Part shown: in pieces, positions 10,968 to 16,415 of the stretch
Layout: every line of letters starts with the position of its first letter
Numbering within the stretch: the first letter of the stretch is position 1
The notes under the pieces: model-generated
What the model was told of the DNA's origin: nothing
The model's database searches: none
What the model saw: the letters and a program-made list of their open reading frames with translations, nothing else
NCBI GenBank assembly: GCA_030836185.1
Contig: JAURQH010000043.1
Location: 1 to 64,000, forward strand
Direction of reading: 5' to 3'
DNA from: Planctomycetota bacterium
Lineage (GTDB): Bacteria; Planctomycetota; Planctomycetia; Planctomycetales; Planctomycetaceae
DNA: 64,000 bases
Translations under genes and position numbers: made by a program

Positions 10968-13874
10968 ATGCTGTGGGAAGTCGAGATTCGTCCAAAAGCT
11001 GGCCTCATCGATTATGAGGGACAACGCATCCTGGCAGAAAGTCGGGAACTCGGTTCGCAAACGATTGATTACGTCAAGACGGCAAAATCGTTTCTGATTG
11101 AAACCTCCTTACCGGAAGCCGATGTCCGACGCATTGCTGGCTCCTTGTTAGTCGATGTCGTCGTCGAAGATTGCGATCTCCGCACGCTCCCTTCCCCACA
11201 AGCCACAGCAAACGGCCATCGCCTTCTAAATGTCTTGTTGAAGCCCGGCGTCACCGATAACGTCGCTCGCTCGGCTCGAAACGCAATGACTGAACTGGGC
11301 GTCACCACCGAGGCCGTCTCGACATGTCGCAAATACTGGATTAACTCCTCTGCCGACGAAGCCGACATCAAGCGAATCAGCACCAAGCTGTTGGCCAACG
11401 ACGCCATTGAACATGTACTCGAAGGACCATTACAACTCGAATCGATCACGCTTGGTTCTCCCTATCAGTTTGAACTGACTCACATTGCCATCCGCGAGAT
11501 GGATGACGCCGCGTTAGAAGTTCTCTCCAAAGAAGGTCAGCTCTATCTCAGTTTGACCGAGATGCAGACCATCCGCGATTACTTCATATCGCTTGACCGT
11601 GACCCGACCGATGTCGAACTCGAAACGGTCGCTCAAACCTGGAGCGAACATTGCTCTCACAAAACACTCGCCGGTCGTATTCACTACAAAGATGAGTCGC
11701 GCGATATTCAGTTCGACAATATGCTCAAAGAAACCGTCTTTGCCGCCACGATGAAAATTCGTGAAACGCTCGGCGACGACGATTGGTGTGTCAGTGTCTT
11801 CAGTGATAATGCCGGCATCATCACCTTCAGCGAGACGGAAGATGTCTGCATCAAAGTGGAGACTCATAATCATCCCTCAGCTCTCGAACCTTACGGCGGC
11901 GCGAACACTGGTCTGGGTGGTGTGATCCGCGATCCTTTGGGAACAGGCCTCGGAGCGCGTCCCGTCTGCAATACCGATGTCTTCTGTTTCGCGCGTCCCG
12001 ATTACCCTGATGCCAAGTTGCCTCCTGGTGTCTTGCACCCACGGACCGTTCTGAAAGGTGTCGTCTCGGGAGTCCGTGATTACGGCAATCGAATGGGGAT
12101 CCCCACAGTCAATGGTGCGGTCTACTTCGACGACCGTTATCTCGGTAATCCGCTTGTCTACTGCGGCAATATTGCCATGATTCCCGTGGGCAAAAGTCAT
12201 GGGAAAGTCGAACCGGGACATCTCATTGTCGCGGTTGGTGGACGCACTGGACGAGACGGCATCCACGGCGCCACGTTCTCCTCTGCAGAACTGACCGAAG
12301 AATCTGAATCACTCTCCGGTGGCGCGGTCCAGATCGGCAACGCAATCACCGAAAAGATGGTGGCCGATGTGATCCTGCAGACCCGCGATGAAGAGCTTTA
12401 CTCAGCCATCACCGACTGCGGTGCGGGCGGGTTCTCGTCAGCCGTTGGCGAAATGGGAGAGAAGACAGGCGCCGAAGTCTGGCTCGAAAAAGCTCCTCTC
12501 AAATATGCCGGCCTCTCCTACACAGAAATCTGGATCAGCGAAGCGCAAGAACGCATGGTGCTCGCGGTTCCCGAAGAGAACTGGGAACGCTTCCACGAAA
12601 TCTGTTCTGCCGAAGGGGTCGAAGCCACCGTCCTCGGCAAATTCACTGACACTGAGCGACTGGTCCTTAAATACGAGGGAACAGAAGTGGCCGATGTGAC
12701 CATGGCCTTCCTCCATGATGGTCGTCCTCCCGTCATTCGCGAAGCGGTTTACTCGCCTCCTGAAACAGTTGCTCTTAACCTCCCAGGAAAAGCTCGTTTC
12801 GATGACGACCTCAAAGCGATCCTCGGCTCACTCAACGTCGCCAGCAAAGAATGGATTATTCGGCAGTACGATCACGAAGTGCAAGCGGGCTCTGTCGTTA
12901 AACCGCTCGTCGGTATCAAAAGCGATGGGCCGTCCGATGCAGCCGTTGTACGCCCCGACCTCACCATCAATCGTGGGCTCGTTATCTCCTGTGGCATGAA
13001 TCCCTGCCTTGGTGATTACGATCCGTACTGGATGGCCGCCTCGGCGATTGACGAAGCGATGCGTAACTGTGTGGCCGTTGGAGCCGATCCAAACAAAATT
13101 GCCATCCTCGATAACTTCTGCTGGGGGAACACTGAACGTCCCGAAACTCTCGGTTCGCTCGTGCGGGCGTCGCTTGCCTGTCACGACATGGCCATCGCTT
13201 ACGGCACTCCGTTCGTCTCTGGTAAAGACAGCCTGAACAACGAGTTCTCCTACTTCGACGACAATGGTGAGAAAACCACGGTTGCGATTCCGTCTTCGCT
13301 GCTGATCACGGCACTCGGACAAATTGCCGACATCGAACAAGCCGTTACGATGGATTTGAAGGAAGCTGGCAACCTGTTGTATTTGGTCGGTGACACCAAA
13401 GACGAACTCGGTGGCAGCCATTATTCCCTGGTCAATGATCTGTGCGGAGGCGAAGTCCCCCAAGTCGATGTCGATGCGGCCATGACTGTCTTCCGTAGTA
13501 TTCACACCGCGATCACTTCTGGCTTCGTTCGCAGTTGTCATGATTTGAACGAAGGAGGACTTGCCGTCTCGGCTGCCGAGATGGCTTTTGCGGGAGGCTT
13601 GGGAGCGGACATCGACCTGTCGCAACTCGCCGAACAAACGGGCATCAACAAGAGCGACATTCTCCTCTTCTCAGAAAGTAATAGCCGTTTTCTGGTCGAA
13701 GTGGCTCCAGAATTTCACGCAGAGTTTGAAGCGGCCATGCAAATGGTCCCGTTCGTAAATCTCGGGAGCGTGACCGACGATGCAACACTCAAGGTCGTGT
13801 CTGGCGACGACACTCTGATCGAATCGAACAGTGAAGAACTACGAGAGGCTTGGAAAAGTCCGTTGCAGTTTTGA
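10968..13874 (+). CDS. purL: Phosphoribosylformylglycinamidine synthase, PurS-like segments fused to PurL
   Basis: Makes FGAM from FGAR, ATP and an ammonia donor in purine synthesis. The product is 968 residues: longer than stand-alone small PurL (about 740) and shorter than the PurL-PurQ fusion (about 1300). Residues 1-160 look like two consecutive PurS-like units ([17 protein letters not shown]... and [20 protein letters not shown]...), then the PurL core: [54 protein letters not shown], and the second half with [12 protein letters not shown] and [12 protein letters not shown]. No C-terminal glutaminase with a Cys-His-Glu triad is present, so a separate PurQ is needed. Translation begins [10 protein letters not shown], with AAGGA-like sequence about 9 bases upstream. 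Confidence 0.93.
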
Positions 13875-13990
13875 AGGACTCTGTGTTCGGCAACTCACTT
13901 TAATAGTCTGTTGATATCAATCCTCCATTCCCGAACACTCAACCGCCTTTTCAAGATTTGAAGATTCGATGATTTGGGGGGGTGCCATTT

Positions 13991-14047
13991 CCGAATCTTG
14001 AAATCAAATCTTCCCAAATCTTGATTCCGAATCTTCCCGAATCTTGA
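13991..14047. repeat. About 2.5 tandem 23-bp units
   Basis: Units start at 13991, 14014 and 14037, each opening CC(G/A)AATCTTGA. The first two full units match at 18 of 23 positions and each contains a second AATCTTC half-site about 12-14 bases after the first. The segment at about 13951-13978 is an imperfect inverted match, so the block could fold back on itself. Confidence 0.6.
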
Positions 14048-14291
14048 GCAAGTTCTTGGCCTCGTTCGGTTTGTGTCAAAACGTGTGGGGAGTGAAAAAG
14101 TACCCCAATGTCGGTGCGCATTTTCCACGCCACGCGAAATCGTCTCCTTTCTCACGTTGCAGCGGTCGTCATTGGTAAACACGTTATCGGTTTCAAATGA
14201 CGTTCAAATTGCCAAAGATCAATTCGCCCTCAGGCGAACTCTGAACCGTATCTCTGGTACGAAGAGTTTGGCAAGACCAATCAAGAGTGAT

Positions 14292-14319
14292 CATAGCCCG
14301 AACTGCGCAAGCAGTCGGG
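14292..14319 (-). repeat. 28-bp dispersed repeat, copy 1
   Basis: Read on the minus strand this is CCCGACTGCTTGCGCAG followed by TTCGGGCTATG. A second copy on the plus strand at 31470-31497 differs at only one base. Each copy contains an inner inverted repeat CCCGA...TCGGG. Confidence 0.7.
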
Positions 14320-14503
14320 ACAGGTGCGAATCATATTCGGCTGGCCATCGCAATCACGCAGACAGACTACGAAATAGAACACGGATGAAACGGAGAAAAC
14401 GGATTGTCACGGATCAAAGATTTATTGACGCAAATTCGCCAAGATGCGAAGCAACGCAAAGAGGTTGTAGCTGCGTTCGCAAGAACGCAGAGAAATTCAC
14501 GGC

Positions 14504-14573
14504 GTTGGGTGGCTGCGGCTCTCACAGTCTGTCAATTGAGAAATGACGCTTGATTGAGCCCCAGCCACCCGAC
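14504..14573. repeat. Inverted repeat of 18-bp arms
   Basis: The left arm 14504-14521 (GTTGGGTGGCTGCGGCTC) and the right arm 14556-14573 are reverse complements at 16 of 18 positions, separated by 34 bases. The GTTGGGTGGC word also opens the palindrome near 15199. The arrangement fits a small non-autonomous mobile repeat. Confidence 0.6.
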
Positions 14574-14884
14574 ACGTTTCTCACTCCAAGAAAAAGAAGT
14601 CGGTTGGCACTGGTGGCTTGTCACAAGTGAGAGAAGTTGACTCACGCAGCGGCGCGGAGACGCAGAGGAATAAGAGAAGTGGCGTTGGTCAAGTTCCGGC
14701 ATGACTCCCTCTTGAAAACTCAGCGACAAGACACAACTAGCATTTTGAACCACGAACGACACGAATCAAGCGAATGAAAACAGGGTGGCGGGGCGCTCCG
14801 TGAAACGGAAGCCCCCGGAGATAGACCGTAGATGATTTCACCGCAGAGTTCGCAGAGAACGCGGAGAATTATTCAGAGCCGTAG

Positions 14885-14920
14885 GTCGGATTAGCCGAGC
14901 GAAGCGAGCCGTAATCCGAC
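14885..14920 (+). repeat. Hairpin repeat, copy 1 (9-bp stem)
   Basis: GTCGGATTA (14885-14893) pairs perfectly with TAATCCGAC (14912-14920) around an 18-base centre containing GAGCGAAGCGAG. A second copy in the opposite direction at 37610-37645 matches at 30 of 36 positions. This type of GTCGGATTA...TAATCCGAC unit is widespread in bacterial intergenic DNA. Confidence 0.7.
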
Positions 14921-15206
14921 ATTTCGAATGGACATGAAGCTTTCAACTCACGGGTGCTTCTGCTGCGCAGAGCGCCCGCCACCCATTGTACTCCAATAGA
15001 TCTGTTGATAAATAGACTCACGCAGAGGCGCAGCGGCGCGGAGAAAGAGAAGCAAGATGTTCGCTGATCAAAACTCTGCCTCAAAATCATGCAGAGACAG
15101 GAGAAATACTTTTTGTGCCTTTTGGTGTTTTTTGTGGCCATCAAATGAAAGAACCGCGGATCACGCGGATGTCACGGATAAACAGAGAGACTTACCACGT
15201 TGGGTG

Positions 15207-15228
15207 GCACGTCCTGAACAGGACGTGC
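15207..15228. repeat. Perfect 10-bp palindrome with AA loop
   Basis: GCACGTCCTG (15207-15216) and CAGGACGTGC (15219-15228) are exact reverse complements across an AA dinucleotide. No T-run follows on either strand. Confidence 0.65.
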
Positions 15229-15353
15229 TTCGTCGCAGCAAGATGAATCATCCTGCGGGTTGAATTTGGGAAGATTCGTGACTGACTTCATTCGACGGTC
15301 ATCAAGAGTCATTTTGTGATTTCATTACCCAGCCAAATGTTTCGCTGAGTTTC

Positions 15354-16109
15354 TTAGATGATGTTTCGAGGTTTGAATTTGGAATCGCCCGTCTCCATTA
15401 AATATCGTAATCCCTGTTTGAACGAAGCGCGGGCATCCAGATGTAGATGTTTTGCCCAAGTTGGTTTCGCTTCGTTTCGCAACCAGGCGGCGTGTGCCAA
15501 AGCATATCCAAACATCGGTTGCGTCATATATTCAGGTTTGGGGACTTTACTGCTTGGCCAATACGTGAAATCGCTCTCCCACGCTCGGGGAACATTGGCC
15601 AAAAAGATTCCCAGTCCATGAAAAACGACCGTCAGATCTGTGAGGAGTTCATTATCGAAAATCTCATCCGGGATACGCCGTTCACCGAGAAGACGCAAAT
15701 GGGCCAGTTCGTGTGCCATGGTGCCGACTAATGTCATGGGGTCATCCAACTGGGATGTCTCCAGATGAATGGTCGTTTTGTGTGATTGTTCATCATAGAG
15801 GCCTGCGTTTTGAGGAAGTACTTGTCCTCGGTCATTGATCAACCACAATTCATTATTATTGGTGAAGAATTGGAGTTCGACACGATCCATGTCGGCATCC
15901 ATGTATCGACAGACTCGGTCGAGTAGGCTTTTCGCGGCTGCCTCGGAGCCATCATAGTTGTCAGGGAAATATTCCTGGAGAGGCAGGATGATCGAGCGGC
16001 GTGTGAACACATCGAGGCCGAACTCATCGGCCAACCATGCCAAACGAGTTTCGATCCAGTTTTTGGCACGAGGATCGACAGGACAGGTAGGGCGAAACCA
16101 TCCAAACAT
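15354..16109 (-). CDS. HExxH putative zinc metallopeptidase, unknown family
   Basis: A 251-residue protein with HELAH at residues 133-137 inside GTMAHELAHLRLLGE, the zincin motif in which two His bind zinc and Glu is catalytic. About 17 residues later ELLTDLTVVFHGLG offers Glu154 or Asp158 as a third ligand, which would fit a gluzincin-like arrangement. No signal peptide or membrane helix is seen, so it is probably cytosolic. Start MFGWFRP (16109) is chosen because GAGGA lies 7 bases upstream; the ORF could begin 10 residues earlier at 16139. I recognise the type as a planctomycete hypothetical but cannot name a substrate. Its stop abuts the repeat island. Confidence 0.75.
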   Translation of the reverse strand: MFGWFRPTCPVDPRAKNWIETRLAWLADEFGLDVFTRRSIILPLQEYFPDNYDGSEAAAKSLLDRVCRYMDADMDRVELQFFTNNNELWLINDRGQVLPQNAGLYDEQSHKTTIHLETSQLDDPMTLVGTMAHELAHLRLLGERRIPDEIFDNELLTDLTVVFHGLGIFLANVPRAWESDFTYWPSSKVPKPEYMTQPMFGYALAHAAWLRNEAKPTWAKHLHLDARASFKQGLRYLMETGDSKFKPRNII

Positions 16110-16415
16110 CAGCGAGTCCTCGGTGTTATTGTTTTTCATCTTATCACGAAGTGAGTGTCTGTTTCAGGCTCACTCGTCGATTCACGGCACTGGCAAAATG
16201 TGATTGGAACCCGGTGTTCATTACTGCATTCATCCACGCGATCTCATCATCGTCCCAGCAGAATGCCATCGTCAAGAACTTTATACATCTATCTGAATGC
16301 AGACGGAGTAAGCTAATGATACGGTTTGATCACTTGTCTCAAGATTTCCTGGGTGTTTGTGATGCGGCTCAATTCTTGAGTTGGAACGCCGTGGGATTCT
16401 CGGTACAACGGCAGC
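16110..16415. other. Divergent intergenic region
   Basis: About 300 bases between the metallopeptidase (minus) and the amino-acid-kinase-fold gene (plus). I see no gene, RNA or clear repeat in it; promoters for both neighbours must lie here but none is distinct enough to call. Confidence 0.45.

Follow-up and report, generated by a model that had tools for sequence, protein, structure and literature searches.

The 64,000-nt window analyzed in this work (contig JAURQH010000043.1 of the Planctomycetota bacterium assembly GCA_030836185.1) contains, between two convergent genes, a 1.5-kb island of non-coding, repeat-rich DNA (13875–15353), which is the subject of this analysis; all features of the island are given on the + strand. 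Upstream lies purL (10968–13874, + strand; 968 aa), identified by NCBIfam TIGR01736 with 593.7 bits, above the cut-off, and downstream a gene for a protein of 261 aa (15354–16139, - strand), which shows a weak SprT-like match below the cut-off. The longest open reading frames (ORFs) of the island, of 157, 95, 91 and 76 aa, are mutually overlapping and distributed over both strands, and a Pfam search with two of them (157 and 95 aa) gave no family. On these grounds we reject protein coding; a single ordinary pseudogene covering the whole segment, which a preliminary description of the island had set against its own reading, is likewise refuted and does not explain it. A known RNA family was also rejected, as the Rfam search of the 64-kb window, island included, gave 0 matches at or above the gathering score. 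With seven families of direct repeats and four inverted pairs in the island, the earlier observation of a quasi-repetitive stretch holds, and it is too modest. Its left boundary has to be moved: the repeat proper begins at 13927, not at 13875, and the preceding 52 bases (13875–13926) are unique sequence that separates purL from the element and is conserved in a congener at its own purL locus. Our comparison within the genus covers three species, namely the window's own genome (G000), the congener (G059) and a third species (G003); G000 and G059 are draft assemblies (107 and ~230 contigs), and in what follows C designates a contig of a draft assembly and L a locus or copy.

The conserved start of the dispersed repeat, termed here the head, is ~257 bp long (13927–14183) and belongs to the first of two subfamilies. 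Its 5' end, (c)ATTCCCGAACACTCAAC, is sharp; iterated AATCTT words of its own occur within the head together with a pair of inverted repeats, and some of its alignment columns are conserved. BLASTN of the island against its own genome listed 98 matches, with the best 40 candidates scored, and a second query with a diverged head gave 41 rows, again with the best 40 candidates scored. By our own count, the union of both searches comprises at least 55 distinct head loci in G000, which is a lower bound because each search scored 40 candidates only. The preliminary description had proposed exactly this check and had staked its case on recurrence, and the recurrence is there. Many G000 contigs end within or near heads (C11, C24, C53, C81, C91, C99 and others); the true copy number is therefore probably higher, with the islands themselves limiting the assembly. 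Relative to the window copy, the heads fall into two subfamilies, mostly with ~88–94% and with ~71–76% identity. Their 5' edge is one sharp base in nearly all copies, and no upstream target motif was found at this edge beyond a weak pyrimidine bias. The body modules come after the head in the same orientation, so that the copies are oriented composites; body length and module order vary among copies, and a constant 3' end was not seen. Heads usually sit just past the end of a gene, and gaps between convergent genes are typical: head and upstream gene have the same strand in 29 of 35 rows of G000 (two duplicates included) and in 15 of 17 rows of G059, and the downstream gene, where callable, is on the opposite strand in 16 of 18 rows. 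No head-linked transposase was identified. Among 61 genomes drawn from the family only three gave a head match, all from the same genus, and the match in G003 was of 42 nt only; the search of the three species of the genus found ~40 heads in G059 and none in G003. The purL locus of G003 is without the element, but the neighbour gene there also differs.

Behind the head, the body contains short intergenic palindromes in many copies, which is the mark of repetitive extragenic palindromic (REP) elements. It opens with a recurring module with inverted ends TTGCCAAA...TTTGGCAA (14202–14278), which is free of palindromes in the window; in copies L033 and L047 other palindromes lie inside this module and look as nested insertions would. 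Next come the palindrome TAGCCCGAACTGCGCAAGCAGTCGGGA (14294–14325), which recurs in other islands, a GTAG-tagged REP-like palindrome GTAGCTGCGTTCGCAAGAACGC (14467–14489), and a pair GGGTGGCTGCGGCTC ... GAGCCCCAGCCACCC (14504–14573), detected by the repeat search as inverted repeat I1 and resembling REPINs (REP doublets forming hairpins). A decayed copy of the palindrome GGGTGGCACTGGCGGCTTGCCCGCCAGTG, recognized by eye (14600–14634), and a GGGTGGC-tagged palindrome (14783–14821) precede a GTAG-tagged REP palindrome GTAGGTCGGATTAGCC...TAATCCGACA (14881–14923); 14878–14921 matches many places in G059 and G003. The series is completed by a palindrome ending in GCCACCC, i.e. a reverse-oriented one of the GGGTGGC type (14953–14984), and by a tail module (15199–15341) that runs from a GGGTGGC-ACGTCCTGAACAGGACGT palindrome to ACCCAGCCAAATG. 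The REP foot tetranucleotide (GTAG/GTGG or CGTC) is present at 14881 and 14467 and absent from the GGGTGGC-type palindromes at 14507, 14783 and 15202. The island as a whole is not a REP unit in the sense of a single short hairpin or pair, given its ~260-bp head and its arrays of non-palindromic words.

The genome has six genes for Y1 transposases, and we read the flanks of five. L080, which encodes a REP-associated tyrosine transposase (RAYT), has GGGTGGCACTGGCGGCTTGCCCGCCAGTG on both flanks, and the same palindrome occurs in islands L033, L047 and L057. L079, a REP-associated transposase over the NCBIfam cut-off, is flanked by relatives of the tail module of the island. L081 is flanked by palindromes present in islands L037 and L048, and L082 by a GTAG REP palindrome that is absent from the window island. 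L080 and L079 are thus RAYT genes whose flanking palindromes match those of the island, although such a gene was not found for every island palindrome, and several of these palindromes appear to be REP elements also present at the flanks of RAYT-type transposase genes of the same genome. REP and REPIN elements and RAYT (TnpA-REP) transposases, GTAG-tagged repeats included, have been described (PMC3733652, PMC6006769). As far as the portions of these accounts used here go, the likeness lies in the intergenic palindromes, some of them GTAG-tagged, paired in inverted orientation and also found beside resident Y1 genes, and these known systems would account for the palindromes of the island. Most of the island is not REP, however: the ~260-bp head lacks a GTAG foot, the words form no palindromes in the arrays of this island, and in several palindromes GGGTGGC takes the place of GTAG or CGTC. 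Planctomycetes and Acidobacteria are reported to have class 3 TnpA-Y1 genes whose secondary structures are atypical (PMC6006769, in the part consulted). L081 resembles these in its YVDEAQ motif and in its flanking palindromes, which lack GTAG and recur in the two islands named above, although its class was assigned by eye and its surroundings showed no head and no word arrays.

The preliminary description had noted phrases built on ACGGAT, CGCAGAG and CACGAA. The phrases are real arrays, but the words are not independent motifs: all three are variants of one degenerate 7-mer, CRCRRAK, spaced 8–11 nt. When arrays were scored as three CRCRRAK words with 8–11-nt spacing and a threshold of at least 19 of 21 positions, the island yielded seven on the + strand and 0 on the - strand, whereas 200 first-order Markov shuffles averaged 0.05 arrays and gave at most 1. 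These are AACGGAG/AACGGAT/CACGGAT (14389–14414, within a longer ACGGAT phrase from near 14375), CGCCAAG/TGCGAAG/CGCAAAG (14437–14461), CGCAGCG/CGCGGAG/CGCAGAG (14645–14667), CACGAAC/CACGAAT/AGCGAAT (14751–14775), CGCAGAG/CGCAGAG/CGCGGAG (14842–14866), CGCAGAG/CGCAGCG/CGCGGAG (15021–15043) and CGCGGAT/CGCGGAT/CACGGAT (15155–15179). Strict arrays of exact words are almost absent from an unbiased 389-kb sample of the genome because the words are degenerate in this genome. Per kb, intergenic DNA has more matches to the relaxed score than coding DNA, and outside the head islands this score barely exceeds that of shuffles genome-wide and arrays are few; arrays are therefore chiefly an island feature here. 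Within 1.25 kb behind the head, in the 22 copies of G000 and 18 copies of G059 with enough sequence, 44 arrays are on the head's strand and two on the opposite one; the 1.5 kb upstream of the head contain a single array.

Comparison of the two head-bearing species suggests what happens to these islands with time. The start could be set for 18 distinct heads of G059, and eight of them have their upstream flank in common with a head of G000, the purL site of the window included (a ninth BLAST row, a partial inverted match, was excluded). At these eight shared sites the identity of the same-site heads is 0.66–0.81 and that of the best head of the own genome 0.85–0.96, and the own-genome resemblance spans the whole head at every site; among 18 heads, the same-site copy ranks 2, 3, 8, 12, 13, 13, 14 and 14. 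Five of the eight sites carry subfamily 1, which is absent among the 18 G059 heads in the tree. Such closeness to copies of the own genome, together with these five occurrences, is as expected from copying over existing heads. The island bodies turn over at the shared sites.

Five shared sites were extended into their flanks. Synteny holds on both sides at one site, could not be judged at another because the contig of G000 stops, and breaks off at the island at the other three. Two of these three are reciprocal: in G059 the island of C161 has upstream of it the flank that precedes the island of G000 C35, and downstream of it the flank that follows the island of G000 C72, whereas the island of C170 has the two remaining flanks, the upstream one of C72 and the downstream one of C35; the flanks are multi-kb, with 82–88% identity. 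According to the alignment, the switch point lies behind the head, inside the island, at both junctions. The two islands thus appear to have exchanged their flanks reciprocally. Exact matches between them extend over 65 bp at most in G000 and over 30 bp at most in G059, so that a double misjoin becomes less probable. This apparent exchange and the homogenization of heads within a genome bear out the term "recombinogenic" used in the preliminary description. The window island has a 104-bp exact stretch in common with C35. At the purL site, synteny of G059 with the window resumes only at 16377, and the neighbour seen in G059 sits in G000 at the end of C97, beside pieces of an island.

Two further loci can be mentioned in this context. 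Between L413 (C109 of G059) and C7:100708–104041 of G000 a segment of ~1.28 kb is inverted; a head is present in G059, and the G000 side has only ~40 nt of head and a word array. This is a second possible island-linked rearrangement. In G003, word arrays fill a gap (L105:1260–1621) between genes that lie apart in both G000 and G059, and therefore the arrays there also lie at a breakpoint of gene order; as this gene adjacency is absent from both other species, L105 was rejected as an empty-site test.

Similar phrases had also been claimed to occur between genes of unrelated phyla, and here the preliminary description was right. A pattern of three CGCAGAG words with 1–4-nt linkers, searched in genome contigs, matched at least 118 stretches, compared with ~1.9 expected by chance (uniform bases). 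Among the matches listed, 30 of 138 lie within ORFs of at least 150 aa, which make up 75% of that DNA, and an inverted CRCRRAK array (at least 20 of 21 positions) follows within 130 nt downstream in 36 of 128 usable cases and upstream in six; shuffles gave 0 such partners in an earlier run, made with 80 of the at least 118 loci. With a slightly different length filter, the matches listed include 39 hairpins at 30 loci, eight of them in long ORFs. The arms of the hairpins have family words in common (e.g. CGCAGAG with CACAAAG) and unlike linkers: the partner arm has CGCAGAG in 76 of 117 words, the rest being mostly other family members, and 51 of 78 linkers differ between arms. Constant words with variable linkers do not look like simple recent slippage. 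By record title, from which some phylum names were read via genus or family, the hairpin loci outside ORFs come from Pseudomonadota, Deltaproteobacteria, Lentisphaerae, Verrucomicrobiota, Acidobacteriota (Holophagaceae), Chloroflexi, Planctomycetota, Bacteroidetes (Saprospiraceae) and a Methanosarcinales archaeon, the latter a metagenome-assembled genome (MAG). Judged from these sequences, word arrays are apparently present in eight or more phyla, the archaeal MAG included. Many hairpin loci are MAGs, and therefore single cases may be contamination; isolates of Sphingobium and Paucibacter are also among them. One hairpin was searched in E. coli and gave no match. A search free of preset words, which covered 80 loci from genomes, with the query site masked, and 80 from IMG/VR, returned as words found in more than one locus mostly those that fit CRCRRAK (CGCAAAG, CACAGAG, CACGAAT and the shifted ACGAATT); the other recurring word, GATGAAC, comes from the ACGGAT-type phrase. 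A RAYT or other common gene family beside the arrays was rejected: phmmer comparison of five Y1 proteins with 414 ORFs near arrays, at 80 of the at least 118 loci, found no RAYT, and the only ORF cluster spanning at least three of these 80 loci is an ABC ATPase.

Among published repeats, those that we found to come closest to the word arrays are the TAACTGA heptamers, direct repeats of Beggiatoaceae, Cyanobacteria and Bacteroidetes that lie mostly just upstream of start codons and for which, in the portion of the account consulted, horizontal spread is suspected with no evident mechanism (PMC4679880). Both are intergenic arrays of a 7-nt word common to distant phyla. The arrays of the island differ in that their word is the degenerate CRCRRAK, with 1–4-nt linkers, placed past gene ends and often hairpin-paired in other genomes; they are not direct repeats of TAACTGA before start codons. 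Searches of the open-access literature by sequence string and by topic, with subscription papers and preprints outside their scope, found no account of the head or of CRCRRAK arrays.

We consider it probable that the island belongs to a family of non-coding composite repeats dispersed in its genome, in which palindromes moved by RAYT transposases and captured word arrays are assembled in islands that recombine with each other. The ~260-bp head, found in two of the three species of the genus, would mark the start of the repeat, typically in convergent gaps where insertions harm little, and the body behind it, in one orientation, would consist of REP/REPIN palindromes and CRCRRAK arrays. RAYT transposases may mobilize the palindromes in trans; RecA-type homologous recombination between islands, by conversion and crossover, would homogenize the heads and rearrange the chromosome; the word arrays may come in as a separate, widely distributed repeat class and then be carried along. 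Several observations weigh against this proposal. The action of RAYT transposases on the island palindromes is read from their co-occurrence. No empty site for the head or the arrays was found in the loci compared, so that the mobility hinted at in the preliminary description would hold for the REP palindromes with their matching RAYT genes only and not for the head and the word arrays. Homogenization is incomplete: the same-site copy is second of 18 at L066 and third at L050, so some sites keep their own history, and the pair L416/L069 is still 89% alike. At L402/L407, one of four assessable sites, synteny is kept on both sides; moreover, misjoins at repeats in the draft assemblies could mimic exchange. 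Covariation supports only one of 24 pairs in the head, and a structured head RNA was rejected on this result. If the proposal is true, short non-coding repeats outside insertion sequences and rRNA operons rearrange and homogenize a genome at dozens of fixed sites. Dense islands of such repeats also break short-read assemblies.

The head and body could instead be a decayed non-autonomous transposon resembling a miniature inverted-repeat transposable element (MITE), with its transposase lost or located elsewhere, its shared sites being old insertions and recent bursts having produced the 94%-identical subfamily. This would agree with the sharp 5' end at one base, with two subfamilies of different ages and with the lack of a need for any common gene; we nevertheless regard it as unlikely, as only the 5' end is constant and there are no terminal inverted repeats at two constant ends, body length and module order vary, the target has no common motif beyond the pyrimidine bias, and five shared sites carry the young subfamily at old positions with the same border base, for which insertion alone is insufficient. 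We find it more doubtful still that the islands are selected functional 3' elements, such as bidirectional terminators or arrays for RNA decay or protein binding, with the 8–11-nt spacing reflecting a protein or Rho register. Their position past gene ends, the 44:2 strand bias of the arrays, the conserved head columns and the retention of words with free linkers across phyla speak for such a role, but the head is without covariation, the bodies turn over at shared sites, islands have not been demonstrated in most convergent gaps, and G003 lives without heads. Least probable is that exchange and homogenization are artefacts of short-read drafts and the islands an inert pile-up of unrelated repeats: many G000 contigs do end within heads, both genomes are drafts and the 104-bp stretch shared with C35 is exact, but the exchange is reciprocal, with multi-kb flanks at 82–88% identity and no exact repeat longer than 65 and 30 bp between the islands in question, and the own-genome resemblance covers whole heads at eight sites.

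Beyond the composite repeat itself, we put forward tentatively, as an idea that is plausible and falls short of probable, that the CRCRRAK arrays represent an undescribed, domain-crossing class of intergenic repeats, which would be conserved by their 7-nt word, spread by a word-writing or copying mechanism rather than by an adjacent transposase, and captured in this genus into oriented islands as exchange points for recombination. With one word vocabulary in distant phyla and no gene adjacent, it will be interesting to determine what copies or selects a 7-nt word yet ignores the linkers.

A few array loci deserve separate mention. The flank of a Sphingomonas plasmid array had no full-length relative besides itself. 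On three cyanobacterial plasmids (L388, L389 and L390) a word array lies between homologous genes; that of 'Nostoc azollae' pAzo01 is without part of the words and the loop, and single words differ between the other two. The trio was rejected as an empty site, as it reflects a partial deletion within the array. Putative viral contigs (IMG/VR loci L232–L351) have triple-word arrays of the ACGGAT type in at least 120 stretches. In L153, from a Holophagaceae MAG, one hairpin arm has CGCAGAG words and the other CACAAAG, and their pairing needs G-T (G-U) wobble.
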